The notes under the pieces: model-generated | Told to the model about the DNA's origin: nothing | What the model saw: the letters and a program-made list of their open reading frames with translations, nothing else | Database searches by the model: none | Translations under genes and position numbers: made by a program | Assembly: GCF_016859285.1 (NCBI RefSeq) | Contig: NC_053414.1 | Coordinates: 3,219,517 to 3,283,516 of the forward strand | DNA: 64,000 nucleotides | Direction of reading: 5' to 3' | From: Xiphias gladius | Taxonomy: Eukaryota; Chordata; Actinopteri; Istiophoriformes; Xiphiidae | Part shown: piece by piece, positions 27,233 through 56,275 of the stretch | Layout of the letters: every line of letters begins with the position of its first letter | Numbering within the stretch: position 1 is the stretch's first letter

Positions 27233-27313
<81 letters not shown>

Positions 27314-42614: not shown

Positions 42615-42869
42615 GTGAGTACAGCTGATAATATTTACTGTGTTTCAACAAACAGCATTAGCACAAACTAAGAGGGCTACTCAGACAGGAAGTTCATCTC
42701 TTGTCATGTCATACTGACAATTGTCAGATGAACTAAAGTGAAGTTCAGTGACGTTAAACTGTAGAATTAAAACTTATTTCTTCTTCATAATGTTGATGCT
42801 CAACAATAATGAATCATTTTCTACTTGAAATGTTTTTCACACTCTCACTTTTGTTCTCAATGTGTAGAC

Positions 42870-44522
42870 ATGTCTGCTGCCAGTAACCTGCAATCTGAAG
42901 ATCAGTTTCTGTGCTCCATCTGTCTGGATGTGTTCACTGATCCCGTCAGTGCACCATGTGGACACAACTTCTGCAAAAACTGCATAGACAAACACTGGAA
43001 TATTGTTGGCAGGTGCCGGTGTCCTATGTGTAAGAAGGTTTACAAAACAAGACCTGAACTTCAAATCAATACTTTCATCTCTGAGATGGTTGCTCAGTTC
43101 AGACAGTCAACTCAACAGAAAGCCAGCAGCAGCAGCAGCAGCAGCTCAGAGCAACAAGCTGCCAAACCAGCAGAAGTTCCCTGTGACGTCTGCACTGGAA
43201 CCAAACTGAAGGCCCTGAAGTCCTGTCTGGTGTGTCTGACCTCCTACTGTGAGACTCACCTGGAGCCTCATCTGACGGTGTCAGGCCTGAAAAGACATCA
43301 GCTGATCCACCCCGTGGAGAACCTGGAAGACAGGATGTGTACGAAGCACGATAAACCTCTGGAGCTGTTCTGTAAGACCGACCAGACATATGTCTGCTTG
43401 ATGTGCTCTGTTTTAGATCACAAGACACATGAGTTTGTTCCTCTGGAAGAAGAATATGAAGGAAAGAAGGCAGCGCTGGGGAAGACTGAGGCTGAAATTC
43501 AGCAGATGATCCGGAAGAGACGACTGAAGATCCAGGAGATCAAACACTCAGTGAAGATCAGTAAAGATGATGCAGACAGAGAGAAAGCAGAAGGTGTTCA
43601 GGTCTTCACTGCTCTGAAGGAGTCTGTTGACAGAGGCCTGAACGAGCTCATGAAGGAGATCGAAGAGAAACAGAAAACGACGGAGAAACAGGCTGAAGTT
43701 TTCATCAGAGATCTGGAACAGGAAATCTCTGAGCTGATGAAGAGAAGCACTGAGGTGGAGCAGCTCTCAGGCTCTGAAGACCACCTCCACCTCCTCCAAA
43801 ACTTCCCATCCCTGAAAGCTGCTCCACCCACCAAGGACTGGACAGAGGTCAGAGTCCGTCTACCGTCATATCGGGGGACTGTGGTGAGAACTGTGGCTCA
43901 GCTGGAGAAGACGCTCGGTAAAGAGACGAAGAAGCTGTTTGAGGATGAGCTGAAGAGGGTCCAGCAGTATGCAGTGGATGTGACTCTTGATCCTGATACA
44001 GCACATCCTGGTCTCATCCTTTCTTATGATGGGAAAAAAGTAAATCACGGAGATGTGACAAAGAAACTCCCAGCCAACCCAGAGAGGGTTTCCAAGCATG
44101 TCATTGTCCTAGGAAAGCAGAGTTTCTCCTCAGGCAGGTTTTACTACGAGGTTCAGGTTAAAAGAAAGACTGCCTGGACTTTAGGAGTGGCCAGAGAGTC
44201 GATCAACAGGAAGGGAAAAATCAAACTGAGACCTGAGGATGGATACTGGACTATTTGGTTCCGGAAAAGAATGGAGTACCAAGGTCTTGCTGGCCCTGCA
44301 GTCTGTTTCTCTCTGAAGTCTCGGCCTGAGAAGGTGGGGGTGTTTGTGGATTATGAGGAAGGTCTGGTCTCCTTTTATGACGTAGATACTGCAGCTCTCA
44401 TCTACTCCTTTACTGGCTGCTCCTTCACTGAGAGACTCTACCCGTTCTTCTGTCCCTGTAATAACGATGGTGGTAAAAACTCCACCCCTCTGATCATCTG
44501 TCCTGTCAATCAAACTGCCTGA
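42870..44522 (+). CDS. TRIM E3 ubiquitin ligase, RING/B-box/coiled-coil/PRY-SPRY (teleost bloodthirsty/TRIM39-like)
   Basis: A 550-aa protein encoded in one exon. RING finger: C15, C18, C30, H32, C35, C38, C51, C54. A Ser8 run (86-93) links to a cysteine-rich B-box-1-like region starting CDVC at 105, then a B-box 2 near 150-195 (CTKHDKPLELFC..D....C..C). A charged helical coiled coil follows to about 330, then PRY (VTLDPDTAHPGLILSYDGKKV, about 370) and SPRY from about 421 (RFYYEVQV, WTLGVA, DGYWTIWF, VGVFVDYEEGLVSFYDV). This is the standard class IV TRIM layout: a cytosolic ubiquitin ligase whose SPRY reads the target. The frame opens at 42825, but a splice acceptor at 42862-42867 and typical MSAAS start favour 42870. 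The exact paralogue is not assignable by eye. Confidence 0.93.
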   Translation: MSAASNLQSEDQFLCSICLDVFTDPVSAPCGHNFCKNCIDKHWNIVGRCRCPMCKKVYKTRPELQINTFISEMVAQFRQSTQQKASSSSSSSSEQQAAKPAEVPCDVCTGTKLKALKSCLVCLTSYCETHLEPHLTVSGLKRHQLIHPVENLEDRMCTKHDKPLELFCKTDQTYVCLMCSVLDHKTHEFVPLEEEYEGKKAALGKTEAEIQQMIRKRRLKIQEIKHSVKISKDDADREKAEGVQVFTALKESVDRGLNELMKEIEEKQKTTEKQAEVFIRDLEQEISELMKRSTEVEQLSGSEDHLHLLQNFPSLKAAPPTKDWTEVRVRLPSYRGTVVRTVAQLEKTLGKETKKLFEDELKRVQQYAVDVTLDPDTAHPGLILSYDGKKVNHGDVTKKLPANPERVSKHVIVLGKQSFSSGRFYYEVQVKRKTAWTLGVARESINRKGKIKLRPEDGYWTIWFRKRMEYQGLAGPAVCFSLKSRPEKVGVFVDYEEGLVSFYDVDTAALIYSFTGCSFTERLYPFFCPCNNDGGKNSTPLIICPVNQTA

Positions 44523-45548: not shown

Positions 45549-48500
45549 ATGGTGGATTTGCCCGAAAGTGGTGCAGTGTCGCCCGGACACAGCAGACACG
45601 GACAGGGCTCCGGCTCCGGTAACAACGGGAAGAAAACGTCGAAAAAGTCGCGAACGAGGAGAGGCAGGCGAGGCAGGAGAAGAAGAAATAAAAAGAACAA
45701 CAGGAACAACAAAACACCTCCACCGTATTTACCACCGGAGGTAGCTACCGTTCTTGATCCTGGGGATTATCGGGACATCCAGCCCGCTAAACTAGCCAGC
45801 TAGCTGGTGGTGCTGCGGTAAACTCTAGCCAGTCGCGGGGTGATTGTTGCTGCATTTTGTTTACACCAGACTAATAAAATATCTATAACATGGCGTCATT
45901 AGAGTTAGACTTTATGCAGGAGCCTCTACTGCCAATATCTGCCGTTATCGTCTGGTGAAAATGTCACGCCAAAACTGCACTCAAATATCTGACAATTAAA
46001 AATGTATTCGTCTACATGGTTAAGTCACAGAGGCCATAGAAGTTGACTCAATACCTCCTCTGAAAAAACAATCCCCAAATAATAATTCGGCACACGATGC
46101 GACAACATCAGTGTTTGATTTACTATTTTTAGATTCCAACTTTTGGAAAAGTGAAACAATGAAAGCTACCACTGACTAAAGTTCTGTTCTGTGGAAGAAA
46201 TCTGGACTAACCGTTTTTAAAACAGATATTATCCTAATGAAATAAGTGTCGCCAGGCGAAAGGATTGTATTCCGAATTGAAACGTTAATCCTTTTGATAA
46301 CGGAAAAGGTTCAAGTCAAGCATTATTTATTAATTCGCGTTTTCTTAATTAAAAGAAAGCTCAAATTGCAAGAATAGTTAATTGAATCAGGTCGAGATTC
46401 TCTCCTCGCCATGACTGGGCCCCGCAGTGTGACCAGGCGCGATGCTAGAACAGTTACTGAAAATACCCTTTGTCTCTCACCTCGGTCAAATCCAACACCA
46501 GACCTTGACAGCTCTCTGAAAACAGAGAGCTTGACCTCGCTAGAGTTGAGCTCGGCCCCTGGTGTAGTGACAGTGGCTTAGGCTGGGCGACCAGGGGGGC
46601 ACTGGCACACTTCTCAAAAGCATCAACAGAAAATGTTCAGAAAGTTTCAATGAGCATCATAACAAGCGCATGAGCTAGAGGATTTGAGAGTTTTCTGTTG
46701 TTGTTTGAAGTCAAGAAGAGTGGTAATAAAGACAATGGCTAAAATGTCTTTTCCACCTGTTCTGTAAATAAGATACAACATATACACAGGACAGCTTGGA
46801 GATTTAAAAGGTAAAAGTGACATATTGGTGTTTTTATCTGACTCTGTGTAAGACGGACAACTTGCTATTTCTCAAAAGGTTTCTTTCTGTACAGAGAGAA
46901 ACTTTTTACGTTTTTTAAAATTGAAAGTAGGAGGAAGCAAAGACGAACATTACAGCCCCGTGTGATAGCTGAACACGTGACTCCGACACCATGGGCATTA
47001 CTCTGCTGCTGTATCAGCCAATGGATGTTGAACCTGCTCCCATGCAGACACATTGGAGCATCAGTGAGGTCCAGCACTGATGTTGGGTGATAAGGTCTGG
47101 CTCGCTGTCGGCGTTCCAGATTATCCCAAAGGTGTTGGATGCAGGGCAGTCAAGCTCCTCCACGCCAAACTGGGAAAACCAGTTCTTCATGGAGCTGGCT
47201 TTGTGCATGGAGGCACCGCCATGTTGAAACAAGGAAGAGACAACCAGGGATGTCCACACACTTTTGGCCATGTGGTGTGTATGATGGGTAGTCTTTTTGA
47301 CATTAGTTTGTTGTTAACTAATCTCATCTCTCATTCTGTCTTTCTCTGTTTCCAGGCTGAAGAAGGAAACATTGAATATAAGGTAACTTACTTGTTTTTT
47401 CCACAACAAAGTCTGGAAAAATTTGGTATTATTTCATGAAAAATTATCTAAATAGTTTCTGATAATCTACAGATTACTTATTTGATTCACCAGATAATTT
47501 TTTGGTCTATACAGTGTAAAAATACCCAAAGTGACCAAGGTGACTCCTTCAGATGTCTCCTTGTGATGACCCAACCGTGGAAAACCTAAAGATATTGAGA
47601 TCAGAATCATATTCGACAAAGAAAAGCAGAGAATGCTGCAAGTTGAGACCCTGGAACCAGGGAATATTTGACATTTCTTTACTGCTTTTGCTTGAAAAAA
47701 ATGACTGAATCTATTAATTGATTATTAGAATAGCTGCTGATTATTGTTTTGTTTTTTTTGTCGATCGACTAATCGTTTCAGTCGCTCTAGTTACCAGCTA
47801 TGTTTTGGCCAATCCACTGATTATTTGAATGCTCGTTTTAGCTCTGTTTGTTTATACGGTTGGTTAGTTCCATTTAAAACAAACCGATCGGGTTTTATAA
47901 CCTCTTCACAATGTTTTGTCTGCAAAATTCCTAATTTGTAAAGTAACTAGTAACTAAAGCTGTCAAATAATTGCAGTGGATTAAAAAGTACAGTAGCTCC
48001 GTCTCTGCTGTCGTCGTAGCTGAAGCTGGTGAACCCCACTCAGTATCGATTCGAGCATCTGGCCACGCAGCTGAAGTGGCGTCTGCAGGAGGGCCGCGGC
48101 GAGGCCGTCTACCAGATCGGAGTGGAAGACAACGGCCTGCTGGTCGGCCTGACCGAGGCCGACATGAAGGCTTCGCTCAAGACCTTAAGGAGGATGGCGG
48201 AGAAGTAGGTAGCCTCATACGTGTTCGGAGTTTGTCGGATTTAAAAGGTCAATGTGAGCCCGGAACGTGGCAGAACTTTCTTCAGTCGTTAAGGAACATT
48301 TATTCAATAATTGTCTTTAGTTATTTATCTCTCTTGAGGGTCTCAGTCACTTCAGTGCAATAAGAAAAACATGAAAACAGTTACAGTTGACGTAATCCAT
48401 CGCAGTTATGTTTTTGTGTGGGTGCACGGATACAAACAAAGTACAAGCTACTGTTTGTTGTTGGAAAATAACAACGTTAATGACAAAAAAGAAAAAGAAA

Positions 48501-49072
48501 AGTAAAGTGCATTTGCCACATCGGAGAATTCAAACATGAAGGATTTTCAAAACAGTCCTTCCTCGCAGCTGCGGTAAGAGAGGCAGCATTTAGTTACTAT
48601 GCAGTTACAGAGCTGGAAGAGACTTCTAGAAGATTTGACTCTATTTTGGCCACTTTGAAACAGATCCATGTTAAATACTTTTATGGTGTCTGCTGCCTTT
48701 AACCGAAGCTTAAATCAGTTAATTGAGTTTTTTCGTCACTTGGAGGAAGCAGAATAAGCTGATAAAACATCTGACAAATAAGCAGCTTACCAAATCATTG
48801 TAGCAAAAACAGGTCATTAGTCCACATCCAGCAGTTACACAGCAACATGTTGATTCATCTGGATCTGGTGTTTGTCCACCTGATGAATCCAAGTCCACCA
48901 CTCCCTCTGTTTTAGCTCTGGTTTTGGTCTCCACCAGCTCCTGAGGGAAACATCTGGCTCTTTAGCTGCTAAATGTTCCACCGTGTTCACCAGCTGGTCT
49001 CTGACTGGGTCTGTCTACTGTTTGCTGCTGAGCAGGTAGTGGACGGTGGCTTTATCAGAAAACAGCCGCTGC

Positions 49073-49106
<34 letters not shown>

Positions 49107-52100
49107 AACACTTGAGACTGAACCAGACAGGACATGTGGCGTAAAAACCAAAACTAGCAGCTAAAAGAGGCTTAAATGTTCCGTGGAGTCATAACTATGA
49201 GTGACCCCTTCTGAATTACATAGAGTCATTTGCCCTACTATTAATTTAAAGATACTGATTAGTGCAGTGCTCAGCATCGTCCACCTTGACCTGCCCCTTT
49301 ACCTATTTAGTTACTACTTAGTTCTTGTCCCTTCAGTATCTTTTGAAATGGTTTCTAATGTTTTGATTTGCATTTTATTGTTTTATACTGCATTTCCTTT
49401 TTTAGTATCTTAACGTTACATAAAGCACTTTGAATTGTCTTTGAAGTACCACATGACAATAATGTAACTCACAAAAAAAAAGTAGTTTACCGTGATGGAT
49501 AATTTACCTCAAGCACGTTTCCAGTCACTGTAAGTTGATTTTTCCAATGCACTTATAATGCAAGATTTAAAAAAAACCAAAGTGGTAGAAACTGGCTCTT
49601 TATATCGGCCTTTTCTCGTCAGCTGTCATCTGTCTGATCAGGTTTTGTTTCTCTTGTGTGCCTCTTCAGAGTCGGGGCGGACATCACTCTCCTCCGAGAG
49701 AGGGAGGTGGACTACGACTCGGACAGAAACACTCGGAAAATCGCAGAGGTCCTCGTTCGAAAAGTTCCCGACGATCAGCAGGTGAGATTCTGTCCTCCGG
49801 GTACCTCCCTGGTAACCCCGATGGAAGTCGAGTGACCCAGAGCTTCTTCATTTGACCAAAGTGTGCGGACGTCTAATGTCCATATTCGAAGACTAAATAC
49901 AAACACCTGATCCCTCTCCCCCGACACGCTGCTGTGGACGGGGACAGTTCCTGGACCTGCGGGTGGCGGTGCTGGGGAACGTGGACTCGGGGAAGTCGAC
50001 CCTGCTGGGCGTCCTGACGCAGGGCGAGCTGGACAACGGGCGAGGCCGAGCGCGGCTCAACCTCTTCAGACACCTGCACGAGATCCAGACCGGACGCACC
50101 TCCAGCATCAGCTTTGAGATCCTGGGCTTCAACAGCAAAGGAGAGGTGATCACACTGACACGTCCCACCGAAGACACAGAGACAGTGCATGCGATAGTAG
50201 TTAATGGCTTTCTTGACGAGTTCAGTGTTTAACGCTGTGAGGGTATTGTCATCTATGTCTCAGGACGTAATGTATGGAACTTGATATAAAAAAAATCAGA
50301 CTCATCTATGGCGTTGACATCAATGCGTTTGTACAAACTGGTGCAGATCCAGATAATAATCCGGATCTGGTGGAAGAAAATACTGAATCCACGCCAAACG
50401 CACAGTTGCACTCACTGTTTTATGACAAATCATTTATGGCATCAAACTACTTCCTTTTTCCTTTTATTTTTCTAGTTCAAGAGCTGGACAGACGTGTTTA
50501 GGATTGCTTGGCCTCGACGGAGACTCTTTCAGAGTCCAAAGCGGAAAGCTTTGGTTAACAAAACTACATAATATGATAAAGAGCTGTGCAGTTTAACATA
50601 ACTGGATGCAGTATCCCTGCAGTAAACGCTGCCTGCGTAAAGCTTGTTACAGGGATTTCCCAATTAGCTTCTTTCTTCTTCCACCTCAGCCTAAGCATGT
50701 GGTAGTGATCTACTTTTGCCCACAGTGATCATTCAGTTTCATTTTTGGGTTTTTTTGCCTTGCTAGCAACAGGGCCAGAAGATGGCAGGACTGGTTGCTT
50801 GTTCTTTCTGTCCGTCCACTTCTTAGTCCAGCAACTTTGGTCCAGAGCAAAAGTACCTCACGACTCTACTGTAAAATTGGCTGTTTATATTTATTGTCCC
50901 CAGATGATGATTTCTAATGGGGTTTTTTTTTGACTCCAGAGGCCAAAACGTTTAAAGATGCACAAGAAATATGAAAATCTAATGGGCAGACTGCCACTGA
51001 ATTTACTGAGCGCATTCCAGCTCCCCAGAGGATGAAAGCATTAGATTTGAATGACCTGATGCCGAAGTAAAATCCTCTGTCCGCGCTTTCTCACCATCGC
51101 GTCGTGTCGTGCAGGTTGTGAACTACAGCGAGTCTCGGACGGCCGAGGAGATCTGCGAGAGCTCCTCCAAGATGATCACGTTCATCGACCTGGCCGGACA
51201 CCACAAGTACCTGAAGACCACCATCTTCGGCCTCACCAGCTACTGCCCCGACTTCGCCATGCTGGTGGTGAGCGCCAACACCGGCATCGGTGAGCTGCAC
51301 CCACGCAACCGTTACTACCGTAAAGCAGTTCTGCCCAACGATCTGTAGGTTCCCCCACAATGGTACGACACAGAAGAGCATCTGTGGTGCAAGAAACACA
51401 ACAGCGTCTCCCCTGTCTCCTCACAGTACACCGGTCCTCAGCCTTGTGCTTGACATGCTTGTGAAAAGTTTGCTGATGGGGAAACAGAGCCTGAACCTTT
51501 GTTCTGAATTGTTTTGCTCGGAGTGAAATAAATACGATATGCTCCTCCACTTCCAGTGCTGGAGGGGACATAAAAAGTCACCACTAGGGGTCAGAAGTGG
51601 ACAGTTTTAAGACGAGCCCGGAGCTGGAGGAGTCAGTCGGATGTTTTGTCTGTGCAGCGGCAGAGAGCTTTTTGTCAGTCATTTAAACCTTCCAGGTCAG
51701 GATGTAAGGTTTCGGTATCTTTTTCAAATTTCACAATGACCGACCGTTATTCTCATTCTCTGTCAAACCTGCAAACAGCTGCGTTGTTAATTCTTCTCCT
51801 TTGCTTCAATCCAAGAGTTCAGTGAGGAGAAGGGCAGCGTAGTTATGCCCATGACATACTGTAAGATGAGAATATTAGCAGTTTTTTTTTTATTACCATT
51901 TAATCTGCCAGTTACTTTCTTCATTAATTGATTCATTGTTTGGTGGATGACAAAATGCCTGTAGCAATTGCCCCGTGTCCAAGGTGTCTCCTTAATAGGT
52001 CTTCTTTTGTCCGATCAACAGTCCAAAACCCAAATATATTCAGTTAACTATCAAGTAGGACAAATAAAAGCAGCGAATCCTCACATTTGAAAAGCTTCAA

Positions 52101-53016
52101 CCACGGTATCGTTTGTTTGAGTTACGACTGAAACAAAGAACCAAACATCAGAGCGGTTGCTGAATCATTTTCTGTCGACCTGCTGATTGAATGTTGCGGC
52201 GCTAATCTTTCTGTATTGCACAGTAACCAATCATTCTTCTCTCAGACTCTCATACTTGCAAAACTTTATTCTTCAAATTTTGTTCCGATCCTGGAGCTCA
52301 GTGAGGAGAGGGAAATGTGGCGGCGTTCAGATTCCTCTTGTTACTATCAGCTACTGTGAGAGGATGATTTTACAATGCATCGACTCCTTCAGCAGAAGTG
52401 TTGTGATTCAAGGAGGAAAACGCAAATCAAACACACGATAACTGTAGAAAGACTCTAGGATTCATTTTGATGTGAGCGGTCTCTCAGTGTTCCCCCTCTC
52501 CTCCGTCCAGCCGGTACCACCCGGGAGCACCTGGGCCTGGCCATGGCGCTGAAGGTTCCCATCTTCATCGTGGTGAGCAAAGTGGACCTGTGCTCCCGCG
52601 GCACCGTGGAGCGAACCGTCCGACAGCTGGAGCGAGTCCTGAAGCAGCCGGGCTGCAACAAGGTCCCCATGGTGGTATCGAACCCGGACGACGCCGTGAC
52701 CGCCGCGCAGCAGTTCACTCAGTCCGCATGGTGGGTCCACACACTACTGTTATACTGCTGCCTCCAGTACTACATCCAGCACTGCTCCCTAAAAATCCCG
52801 CAGACAGAGCTCCGGCGTCCCGGATCAACTAGTCTCCCCGTGAAGTCTCGCCGGGACGCGTTGGTAGTTGCCCCTAGTGACGGCACATGTTGAAAACTGT
52901 CCCCGTGATTCCGTAGTCCTTGTCCTTTTCATCTAAACGTCACAGCGTCAACTTCTTGAGTGAAACCAAAGACAGTGCACAAAGTATCAGAAACACAGAG
53001 TATAATTAAAGTTTCC

Positions 53017-53081
<65 letters not shown>

Positions 53082-56000
53082 GTGTGTGCGTGCGCAGCAT
53101 CACGCCCATCTTCACCCTGTCCACCGTGTCTGGGGAGAGTCTGGACCTCCTGAAGGTTTTCTTGAACATCCTCCCTCCACTGAGCAACAGCAAAGAGCAG
53201 GAGGAGCTGATGCAGCAGCTCACCGAGTTCCAGGTAAACACACACACACACACACACACACTGTGAACGTCACTCTGCATTGTGCTGCTACCAGTCGACA
53301 CATAAATGAATTTGTGATGTGATCTGTGTGGTATTTACCTTTAAAGAGGGCTTTCAGGTGATACAACTCATCCTCTGGTGTCTGATTTCCAGCCTGGAAA
53401 TCCATGGAAAAGCCCTGGAATGTAAAAAAAAGCATCACAAGACCCCGAATTCGTTTTTGTTCAGACTGAATGTCGACTCTCTGAAGCTTCAGCCAACAGT
53501 CTCTCCACAAGTTACAGCAATATGACGTGTTTTTATTGATTCCGTTTCTGTCTTTCACATCAAGTCAAAATTCATAAACAGCCATAAAAGATTAAGAGAC
53601 GAAAATGATACAATTAAACCCACATTCTCTGAAATACAAAACCATGAAAGTTACAAGAAAATGTACGAAAGTAAAAACTTTGAGTAGAAAATAAAAGAAG
53701 AAGACTTCCTTCATGTGTGTGTGTGTGTGTCTGCAGGTGGATGAGATTTACTCAGTTCCTGATGTTGGGACTGTGGTGGGAGGAACTCTGTACAGGTGAG
53801 AAGACTTCAGAGATCCTACTGGGGTTTGGAAGGTCTGGATCATGTTTCAAGGTTTGGAAATGATCCGAAAAGTCTGAAAAGTACAAAAAGTATCGTCTTT
53901 TTATTCCTGTTGTTGACCTAAACTCAGCCACGGGGACCACGGTCTTCAGACGCCAGATCCAATCAAATCCAACCCAAATCTTCAGTCTAGTTTAAAAATG
54001 GAGAATAAAGACACCAGAAACGGCCGTAGCCCGGAGTTGTGACTGAGAAAGGCTGGAATGTTAAAAAGCAAAGCGTCAGACTGTTATCAGAGGGATTACA
54101 GGCTCGGCTTTGGACTCCTCCACCGAGCGTGTGAGCTCTTCAGCGTCATTGGGTGGAAACAGTGAAGCTCCGCATCTGTGGTGGACCGTTAGGACCAGTG
54201 AGAGAGATCTGGTGAAGACAGCTGAAACATTTTGAGAGCCTGTAATAGATAATAACAAAAAGTCGGGCTTTATTTTTAGATTGTTTTCCGGAAGTTTCTT
54301 TTTTTACTCAAAACACTGAGATGTAGATTTCCGATGTATTTTTCCTCCATACGTTTCTGTCAGGCGTGTGATGAGGCTTCCCTCGTAGGCGACGCTGGTC
54401 ACATAAGACTTGATACAGGGTTTGCAGGGGGACACGAGTAAACTTCCGGATAAGGAGACCTTTGTAAATCTGTAGCAGCCGTTCAGTGGGCTTCAGGTTT
54501 TACTACCTCTGCCTCTAGAACCGGTCTCTGTCGGGTCTTAGTTCGGGGAAAGGCGAGTTCTCTGTTGTGTAACTGCTCTGATTTGAAGCGCAGTGTTTTG
54601 CAGTAGCGGCACTGACTGTGTGTGTGTGTGTGTTATCAGCGGAGTGTGTAGGGAGGGCGAGCGGCTGGTGGTCGGTCCGACCGACGAGGGCCGTTTCCTG
54701 CGTCTGAAGGTGGGCAGCATCCAGAGGAACCGCTCGGCCTGCAGGGTGCTGAGAGCCGGACAGGCCGCCACGCTGGCTCTGGGGAACTTTGACCGCTCGC
54801 TGCTGCGCAAGGTCAGAGGTCGCGTGGCCGAAAGACTGTGTGTGTAAGGTGATGATTCCAGCTGACGGAGCTGCAGTTGGTTAATGGCTTAGTCCATCAC
54901 CACCAAGTTTAATGAAGTTATTAGTTAAATATTTTTGCTTATTGTTTCAGTCTTTTTTTTTTTTTAAGCCAAAACAGTGGAACCCCCCCAAAAAAAAACA
55001 AAAACTTCTGTGATTCCAGCTTCTCAAATGAAAAGCATTTCCTTATTTGGTCAAATTTGCTCAAATATCACTGTAAACTCCATTTCTAAGAGGCCGTGTT
55101 CAGCAAAAAGTAGTCAACAGATTCAAATGTAAGGAAAACAGTTGTTAGTTCTGGCTGTAATTTGATTAAACATAGATGAAGGAAGGAATATGCAGCACGT
55201 AAACACAAATCTGGAACAGCGAAGATCCGGTGGTAAAGCCGGACCCACGACCCTCAGGCCCGTATTAGGTCAGCTGAGTTCTAGGGCCTGATCTTTCTGA
55301 AGTTTTATAAACAGATTTTACTCCCGTCCCTTTGATGGAAACCTAAAGTCGTTTAAACGACACTTTAAAGACGGAAAGTGCAAATGTTTTCGATGGATCT
55401 TCTCTTAGAAATCTCTTTTTGTTTTCCCTCCTTGACACTCTTGAAAACGAGATTTTATTTCTGGTTAAATAAAAGTCAAAGAAAAGTGTTGAGAGCGAAC
55501 ATTTGGCCGACACCCTGTAACGTGATAATACACACACCTCGGCTCTACACATTACACCTTTGTCTCTCAGTCTTTCATCCCTCCGCCAGCGCTGTTGTTT
55601 CCTGGTGTGTGTGTGTGTGTGTGTGTGATGAACCTTACATCCACCATTGCATCCTGCTACTCTGACTCTAGACTTTTAGGTTTGTGGTCACAGCAATGAC
55701 GTTTAGAGAAACGCATGATGGTCATCAACACAGTCCGCAGGCTCTTAAAGTAAAGAAGGGACAAACGTGTGAAAGCCGTCCCGAGCTGCAGGACACGCCG
55801 CCGTGACGGTGATATCCGATTGGTCGTTGCAGGGCATGGTGATGGTCAGTCCCAAGATGAATCCGACCATCTGCTGTCAGTTTGAAGCCGCCATCGTCCT
55901 GCTCTTCCACGCCAAGACCTTCCGCCGGGGGTCACAGGTCACCGTGCATGTCGGCAACGTCCGGCAGACGGCCACCGTGGAGTGCCTTCACGGAAAGGTG

Positions 56001-56275
56001 GGTTTGTAGGCGACGGGGTTCTCCACCCCGCGCGTAACCACATCCCGTAACCTCCTCTCTCTCTGCCGCTGCAGGACGAGCTGCGCACTGGCGAGAGGGC
56101 CGTGGTCCGTTTCTGCTTCATCAAACACCCCGAGTACCTGCGACTGGGCGCCAAGATGCTCTTCAGGGAGGGCGTCACCAAAGGCATCGGCCACGTCACC
56201 CGCCTGCTGCCCCCATTCCAGAACCACGACCAGAACCAGAAGCAGAACCACGACCAGAACCTGCTGGAGAATTAA
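45549..56275 (+). CDS. gtpbp2: GTP-binding protein 2, ribosome-rescue GTPase
   Basis: Twelve coding exons: 45549-45740, 47356-47382, 48020-48204, 49670-49781, 49948-50145, 51115-51289, 52511-52730, 53098-53233, 53737-53795, 54640-54811, 55833-55997 and 56075-56275 (1842 nt, 613 aa; human about 602). A basic N-terminus ([18 protein letters not shown]) leads to [16 protein letters not shown]. The GTPase domain has G1 GNVDSGKS (182-189), G3 DLAGH (263-267), G4 SKVD (319-322, the family's variant of NKxD) and G5-like STVSGES near 378. EF-Tu-like beta-barrel domains follow ([35 protein letters not shown]). Family members act with Pelota to rescue stalled ribosomes. ATG 45549 has G at -3 and +4; the upstream ATG at 45474 has T at -3. 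The C-terminus is a low-complexity NHDQNQ repeat. Confidence 0.95.
46510..46531. repeat. Perfect 9-bp inverted repeat with AAAA loop
   Basis: AGCTCTCTG, AAAA, CAGAGAGCT forms a perfect hairpin in gtpbp2 intron 1. It has no terminator-type T run and no known function here. Confidence 0.7.
46990..47285 (-). mobile_element. Broken Tc1/mariner-like transposase fragment
   Basis: On the minus strand it reads [18 protein letters not shown] then GVEELDCPA, matching the DDE-domain stretch (FQ.D.AP.HKA....WF..FGVEELDWPA) of fish Tc1-like elements. A second frame continues with a VLDLTDA segment. About 20 bp that should encode the SPDLNPIEH catalytic segment are missing, and the second catalytic-region Asp is Gly. 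The element ends near CACACTTTTGGCCATGTGG. It is a dead copy inside gtpbp2 intron 1. Confidence 0.6.
47440..47790 (+). mobile_element. MITE-like repeat in gtpbp2 intron 2
   Basis: It contains TTTTTGTCGATCGACTAATCG and ends GTTTCAGTCGCTCTAG, with internal AACCTAAAGATATTGAGAT. It belongs to the same family as 17974-18241, but is longer and diverged at its left end. Confidence 0.55.
48205..49669 (+). other. gtpbp2 intron 3, repeat-filled
   Basis: From about 48590 to 49190 it holds a dispersed repeat with CATCCAGCAGTTACACAGCA, GGCTCTTTAGCTGCTAAATG and CACCAGCTGGTCTCTGACTG, plus a (GCT)n run at 49073-49104. A retroposon-tail-like stretch (CATAAAGCACTTTGAATTGT) is at 49420-49439. No gene. Confidence 0.5.
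49073..49104 (+). repeat. (CTG)n trinucleotide run
   Basis: Ten or more CTG/GCT units within the interspersed repeat in gtpbp2 intron 3. It is non-coding. Confidence 0.9.
50146..51114 (+). other. gtpbp2 intron 5
   Basis: A 969-nt GT-AG intron (donor GTGATC, acceptor GTGCAG). It is AT-rich unique sequence. The open frames at 50274-50501 and 50745-50933 show no family resemblance. Confidence 0.6.
51890..52190 (+). mobile_element. MITE-like repeat in gtpbp2 intron 6
   Basis: Contains GATCAACAGTCCAAAACCCAA, followed by ATATTCAGTTAACTATCAAG and TTCTGTCGACCTGCTGATTG, words shared with the 38285-38420 and 47440-47790 members. Confidence 0.55.
53019..53095 (+). repeat. (TG)n tract abutting the gtpbp2 exon 8 acceptor
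   Basis: About 36 TG units with two or three CG interruptions run right up to the acceptor TGCGCAG (ending 53097). The usual polypyrimidine tract is replaced. Confidence 0.95.
53237..53261 (+). repeat. (AC)n tract at the gtpbp2 intron 8 donor
   Basis: The donor GTAAAC at 53234 runs directly into about twelve AC units. It is complementary in RNA to the TG tracts at 53019-53095 and 53714-53730. Confidence 0.95.
53714..53730 (+). repeat. (TG)8 at the gtpbp2 exon 9 acceptor
   Basis: Eight TG units are followed only by CTGCAG before exon 9 at 53737. With the AC tract at the other end of intron 8 this forms an AC...TG paired-end intron. Confidence 0.9.
54617..54632 (+). repeat. (TG)8 at the gtpbp2 exon 10 acceptor
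   Basis: A TG run followed by TTATCAG and exon 10 at 54640; a third TG-type acceptor in the same gene. Confidence 0.85.

Follow-up and report, generated by a model that had tools for sequence, protein, structure and literature searches.

Intron 8 of Xiphias gladius gtpbp2 shares the anatomy of (AC)m-(GU)n fish introns, and its donor repeat has a predicted competing partner in intron 7

About a tenth of zebrafish genes carry an (AC)m-(GU)n intron. At the (UG)m acceptor of CFTR, the repeat is bound by TDP-43 and causes exon skipping, and the top motif of HNRNPL is of the CA type. The (AC)m-(GU)n introns of zebrafish were reportedly published by Lin et al. (2016, Genome Res 26:12-23). Passages from three papers describe the (AC)m-(GU)n introns of fishes as having AC repeats by the donor and GT repeats by the acceptor (PMC9024468, PMC7404189, PMC9198270), and in a passage of one of them the energies of the zebrafish class are given as 50-100% lower (PMC9024468). 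According to passages from a further paper, PUF60 has high affinity for UG-rich motifs, and GANAB exon 6 no longer used its natural acceptor once the UG-rich segment near its distant branch points had been deleted (PMC6093180). For human GTPBP2 itself, a passage places HNRNPL downstream of a cryptic exon, on repeats of the motif it prefers most (PMC7410833), and another ties HNRNP-L to AC repeats (PMC13174678). Among the matches listed for literature on gtpbp2 splicing and on circular RNA with dinucleotide repeats, none concerned intron 8.

The window, by which we mean the whole stretch of DNA that was analysed (64,000 nucleotides, C15:3219517-3283516 of a 690.8-Mb genome), carries gtpbp2 on the forward strand at 45549-56275. 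The gene model comprises 12 exons, with GT-AG boundaries at 11 of 11 introns, and yields a spliced protein of 613 amino acids in which EF-Tu GTPase and D2 domains are present. This protein aligns to the solved GTPBP1 (9ypg) with an E value of 3.1e-166 over query residues 69-604; exon 1 and most of exon 2 lie outside the alignment. It continues without a gap across the junctions of introns 8 and 9; one gap, of a single residue, lies beside the junction of intron 7 and another, of five residues, inside exon 8. For comparison, 29 donors and 29 acceptors were collected from four genes of the window. Of these, gtpbp2 is complete, ero1 (minus strand, with a Pfam ERO1 match for one exon) is represented without its first and last exons, and two genes that we take to be gpr137-like and aspp-like are partial, so that the set covers the sites found and leaves the others outside; Pfam gave no match for the gpr137-like gene and an SH3 domain in the aspp-like gene. 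Rfam, searched over 52500-54900 at the gathering threshold, returned no matches, and among viral contigs searched with exon 7 eight stretches fitted a pattern, none of which encodes a relative. The window also holds a TRIM gene (42813-44522), the coding part of which is one open frame with Pfam RING, B-box, coiled coil, PRY and SPRY matches.

The features of intron 8 are as follows.

53234..53736, forward strand: gtpbp2 intron 8, 503 nt, phase 0, with GT-AG boundaries and an ungapped GTPBP1 alignment through the junction
53238..53261, forward strand: (AC)12 tract, 24 nt, starting at +5 of the intron 8 donor
53710..53714, forward strand: candidate branch point TTCAT, whose A, at 53713, precedes the last intron base by 23 nt; a motif match only, with a weak score
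53714..53730, forward strand: (TG)8.5 tract, 17 nt, followed by CTGCAG; it ends 6 nt before the exon, in the slot of the pyrimidine tract

An earlier note on this DNA had placed the intron at exactly these coordinates, and had described a donor GTAAAC running into about twelve AC units and an acceptor with eight TG units followed by CTGCAG. All of this is borne out by the boundaries (CAG/GTAAAC...CTGCAG/GTGG) and by the lengths of the two tracts. Intron 8 belongs to the GT-AG (U2-type) introns, and anatomically it matches the reported (AC)m-(GU)n class. With the zebrafish introns, as described in the passages available from that literature, it has in common AC by the donor, GT by the acceptor and, when modelled in isolation, a predicted helix from end to end. 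In function, the class is marked by splicing that depends on the pairing and proceeds without U2AF2. Judged by its anatomy alone, it would be a further example of the published introns and, taken by itself, would add one more to the reported class.

The folding of the intron on its own is in keeping with such a helix. In the model, the expected number of pairs between the AC and UG tracts is 16.7 for intron 8 alone and 16.6 when exons 8 and 9 are included. The minimum free energy of the intron is -122.9 compared with a mean of -105.5 for shuffled sequences (z -2.74), and 1 of 100 shuffles was as good. Its end-to-end duplex (-41.9) is the strongest among the 27 introns with both ends known, for which the median is -19.0, and among 702 mismatched pairs of donor and acceptor, 8 reach this strength, six of these involving an acceptor with a TG tract. 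For the donor end of intron 8, better partners than the 3' end of the same intron are those of intron 7 (-54.5), of an ero1 intron (-54.4) and of intron 9 (-52.9). Per nucleotide, the folding energy of intron 8 is ordinary, ranking 11th of the 17 introns of at most 1100 nt, among which GC content differs. The folding energy of the zebrafish class, which in the passages describing it lies below that of conventional introns of like length, is a property of the group and is not evident per nucleotide in intron 8.

The predicted pairing depends on the neighbouring introns. Introns 7, 8 and 9 all end in TG tracts, and a donor AC tract is present in intron 8 only. The features concerned are as follows.

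52737..52744, forward strand: short CACACAC at the donor of intron 7, a weak possible partner (-10.1 kcal/mol with the intron 7 TG array)
53019..53092, forward strand: acceptor TG array of intron 7, with 37 periods and no interruption in the first 29 units; the predicted stronger partner of the AC tract
53098..53233, forward strand: exon 8, 136 nt (not divisible by 3), preceded by the TG array and followed by the AC tract
54617..54633, forward strand: acceptor tract of intron 9, (TG)8.5, equal in length to that of intron 8, the donor of intron 9 having no AC tract

When intron 7 is kept in the modelled transcript, the AC tract forms about 24 pairs with the intron 7 TG array across exon 8, and 0.0 with the TG tract of intron 8. 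This preference is unchanged when the temperature is set to 20 or 28 C or the span is limited to 300 or 520 nt, and the pairing with intron 7 is predicted already in a nascent transcript that ends about 30 nt past the AC tract. If the intron 7 array is shortened, the model switches partner between 9 and 10 TG units. Relative to no pairing, the intron 7 array gains 25.4 kcal/mol and the intron 8 tract 12.8 kcal/mol in an RNA that spans intron 7 to exon 9; over 52731-54660, the gain is 26.7, 0.5 and 10.8 kcal/mol for the TG tracts of introns 7, 8 and 9, respectively. Removal of intron 7 from an RNA ending at exon 9 brings the pairing within intron 8 back (16.6 pairs, a gain of 9.3 kcal/mol). In an RNA lacking intron 7 and extending to exon 10, the intron 9 TG tract takes the AC tract (12.9 vs 1.3 kcal/mol) and the TG tract of intron 8 pairs with other stretches. 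This last fold was given less weight, as folds of about 2 kb are unreliable and take no account of proteins; at that lower weight, the predicted capture of the AC tract by intron 9 still counts against simple bridging. A preference of the AC tract for intron 9 was considered and, because of the unreliability of folds of this length, is not claimed. The earlier note had proposed that the two ends are complementary and could bring the splice sites together, and that the intron RNA be folded as a check. In the model, the proposal survives for the isolated intron, in which about 17 pairs join the ends, but not for the transcript that still contains intron 7, in which the TG array captures the AC tract and the pairing within intron 8 is lost.

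The likeliest reading, which we hold only modestly and to which we would assign a probability of about 45%, is that the two tracts form a bridge across intron 8, for the most part once intron 7 is out of the transcript. The helix, some 17 pairs long, would bring the donor and acceptor of intron 8 together, and may thereby aid the pairing of splice sites where the pyrimidine tract is poor. Bridging would work mainly after removal of intron 7, because until then the model has the longer intron 7 TG array holding the AC tract across exon 8. The zebrafish introns differ from this locus in the latter respect: both neighbours of intron 8 carry TG tracts, the longer of which outcompetes its own tract in the model.

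The pairing between the intron 7 TG array and the intron 8 AC tract could also matter in its own right, by acting around exon 8 to favour skipping of the exon, formation of a back-spliced circle or removal of intron 7 before intron 8. The number of predicted pairs and their early appearance in the nascent transcript are consistent with this, as is the strength of the duplex between the flanks of exon 8 (-69.6), which is second only to that of an ero1 exon (-71.0) among 27 exons with a median of -31.3. CFTR also has UG repeats before an exon, and differs in that the repeat there causes skipping. Against a role of the cross-exon pairing, omission of the 136 nt of exon 8 would shift the frame of a conserved GTPase. 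Exon 9 is 59 nt long, which is not a multiple of three either, so that looping out either exon would have this effect. Furthermore, proteins have no place in the folding model, and a long TG array may be occupied by them or adopt another fold. We regard cross-exon pairing as the main role of the tracts as very improbable. A poly(UG) quadruplex was considered for intron 7; a passage of PMC12276007 states that such a structure takes 12 repeats, and the 8.5 units of intron 8 are thus too short for one.

In a further reading, which we consider quite unlikely, a single donor AC tract would be common to the three TG acceptors and the length of the intron 7 TG array would decide between looping out of exon 8 and bridging of intron 8. 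If this were true, a polymorphic repeat in intron 7 would set the splicing of intron 8. Should the competition be real, the locus would offer a compact natural case of three acceptors vying for one donor helix, with microsatellite length as the switch.

The tracts could instead be neutral microsatellites, grown by slippage from seeds at tolerant sites beside splice sites, and have no role in splicing. Dinucleotide tracts are indeed frequent: TG or AC tracts of at least 14 nt number 14 in the window and 34 in a small sample of the same genome (20 random 10-kb stretches, 200 kb in all). In this sample there is no excess of splice-like flanks, with YAG within 12 nt after TG in 7 of 34 cases, the mirror motif in 3 and the motif in the other order in 9, and, before AC, GTRA in 2, its mirror in 4 and RTGA in 1. 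The sample, small as it is, thus lends no support to a broad habit of TG acceptors in this genome. Pairs of an AC tract followed by a TG tract, with GTR before AC and YAG after TG, number 0 in the 200-kb sample; the window has such pairs in the intron 8 AC tract combined with the TG tract of either intron 8 or intron 9. Irrespective of flanks, the sample contains eight AC-then-TG pairs at most 1.5 kb apart and one TG-then-AC pair, counts which are small and perhaps clustered.

What a neutral origin leaves unaccounted for is the side on which the tracts lie. A TG tract is found within 30 nt before 4 of the 29 acceptors and within 30 nt of 0 of the 29 donors; a sense AC tract of at least 8 nt follows 1 of 29 donors within 30 nt, and none of the 29 acceptors has AC within that distance. 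The contrast is weaker at 50 nt, where AC occurs at 2 of 29 donors and no acceptors, and TG at 4 acceptors and 2 of 29 donors. In a placement test, the long tracts of gtpbp2 were put randomly in its introns in 200,000 trials. Three of the four gtpbp2 TG tracts of at least 16 nt end within 10 nt of an acceptor, when the imperfect end of the intron 7 array is included, and this was reached at random with a frequency of 1e-5. An AC tract starting within 5 nt of a donor occurred in 0.74% of the trials, and the combination of AC at a donor with TG no more than 10 nt from that intron's acceptor had a frequency of 3e-5. These values come from a post hoc test of a feature chosen as odd-looking, into which the intron 7 tract was entered as a 70-nt imperfect array whose perfect run stops 21 nt before the intron end. 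On the strength of the side-specific counts and the placement test, chance coincidence of two tracts was rejected as the whole account, with the caveats that the test is post hoc and that the random sample has no excess of flanks.

A second copy of gtpbp2, on C11, bears on the same matter. Its exon 8 is 84% identical over 134 bases, and tblastn matched exons 3-12 and did not find exons 1 and 2. The copy probably stems from the teleost genome duplication, and its open and conserved exons suggest that it is spliced. Its intron 8 (C11:12344697-12344825) has 129 nt, the same position and phase as that of gtpbp2, 55% pyrimidine before the acceptor and an end duplex of -25.7. It contains no AC or TG tract of at least 8 nt. 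TG tracts of at least 8 nt are likewise absent from introns 7 and 9 of the copy, and intron 9 has AC tracts well before the acceptor. If the C11 copy is spliced, the tracts are not required at this intron position, and the copy can serve as a control within the genome for the need for TG and AC ends at intron 8. The absence of both tracts at an unaltered pyrimidine content is in favour of neutral repeats; weighed with the side-specific placement, a wholly neutral origin appears unlikely. The tracts may be younger than the duplication, having been gained in gtpbp2, or may have been lost in the C11 copy. As for the claim of the earlier note that intron 8 fits the AC/GT class of fish introns, the match in anatomy stands, and it is tempered by the tractless copy and by three TG acceptors of the window whose introns have no AC tract of at least 8 nt near the donor. 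Elsewhere in the copy (C11:12334600-12354400), introns 7 and 8 are short and intron 6 is about 6.7 kb long.

Bridging by a helix has also to be set against recognition of the TG tract as such. The earlier note had stated that a normal polypyrimidine tract is absent. The pyrimidine content of intron 8 over the 20 nt preceding the last three bases is 55%, which is low for the window, and to this extent the statement is correct. Absence, however, overstates the case: of the 25 acceptors that lack a TG tract within 30 nt, six likewise score 0.60 or less (gpr137 7046, ero1 27164, aspp 63789 and gtpbp2 introns 4, 5 and 10), and the TG tract of intron 8 is immediately preceded by an 8-nt pyrimidine run, CTTCCTTC. 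The weak tract was rejected as evidence for independence from U2AF2, because the C11 copy has the same 55% without the repeats. The candidate branch point of intron 9 has a better motif than that of intron 8, CACTGAC, with its A 24 nt before the last intron base. Since the candidate branch points of both introns are placed directly upstream of TG, the TG tract fills the slot of the pyrimidine tract. In intron 7, the sole candidate in the last 110 nt, found with a relaxed motif, is 80 nt from the end, and the last 78 nt of this intron contain no A outside CAG.

It may be, then, that the TG tract alone acts as a substitute pyrimidine tract for U-binding factors that accept UG-rich RNA, such as PUF60 or possibly U2AF2 itself, with no helix involved and with the AC tract either neutral or bound by hnRNP L. 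In introns 8 and 9, TG lies between the candidate branch point and the AG, which would suit such a function. So would the introns with TG but no AC: among the four introns with a TG-tract acceptor, a donor AC tract is present in one, while introns 7 and 9 and one ero1 intron have no AC of at least 8 nt within 100 nt of their own donors. The affinity of PUF60 for UG-rich motifs and the effect of the deletion at GANAB exon 6, both from passages of PMC6093180, point in the same direction. As far as those passages describe it, GANAB exon 6 resembles introns 8 and 9 in having UG-rich sequence between the branch point and the AG (the branch points here being assigned by motif only), and its distant branch points are akin to the distant candidate of intron 7. 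It is nonetheless a human exon with a mixed UG/UC tract, unlike the TG tracts of gtpbp2, and any role of PUF60 in gtpbp2 would be by analogy. The slot occupied by TG in introns 8 and 9, taken together with the PUF60 passages, makes recognition of TG without a helix a serious rival to bridging. It leaves the 24-nt AC tract at +5 unexplained, a position rarely reached by random placement as given above, and on balance we think it somewhat unlikely. The passage on human GTPBP2 (PMC7410833) concerns the same gene and has HNRNPL motif repeats downstream of an exon, and differs from intron 8 in that the exon is cryptic and the effect is repression. The presence of HNRNPL at that exon suggests that effects of repeats on GTPBP2 splicing may also act via hnRNP L.

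A similar flanking pattern occurs in ero1. The exon at 28141-28021 on the minus strand is preceded by a TG-rich array and followed by an AC-rich stretch 21-56 nt after the donor (region 28241-27965). In the fold, 17.7 pairs are expected between the TG array and this nearby stretch, and 54.7 between the TG array and a 76-nt AC array located farther along that intron. The 76-nt repeat, at 27235-27310, reads AC in the sense of ero1 and lies about 70 nt before an acceptor, and its predicted partner is the TG array of the preceding intron.
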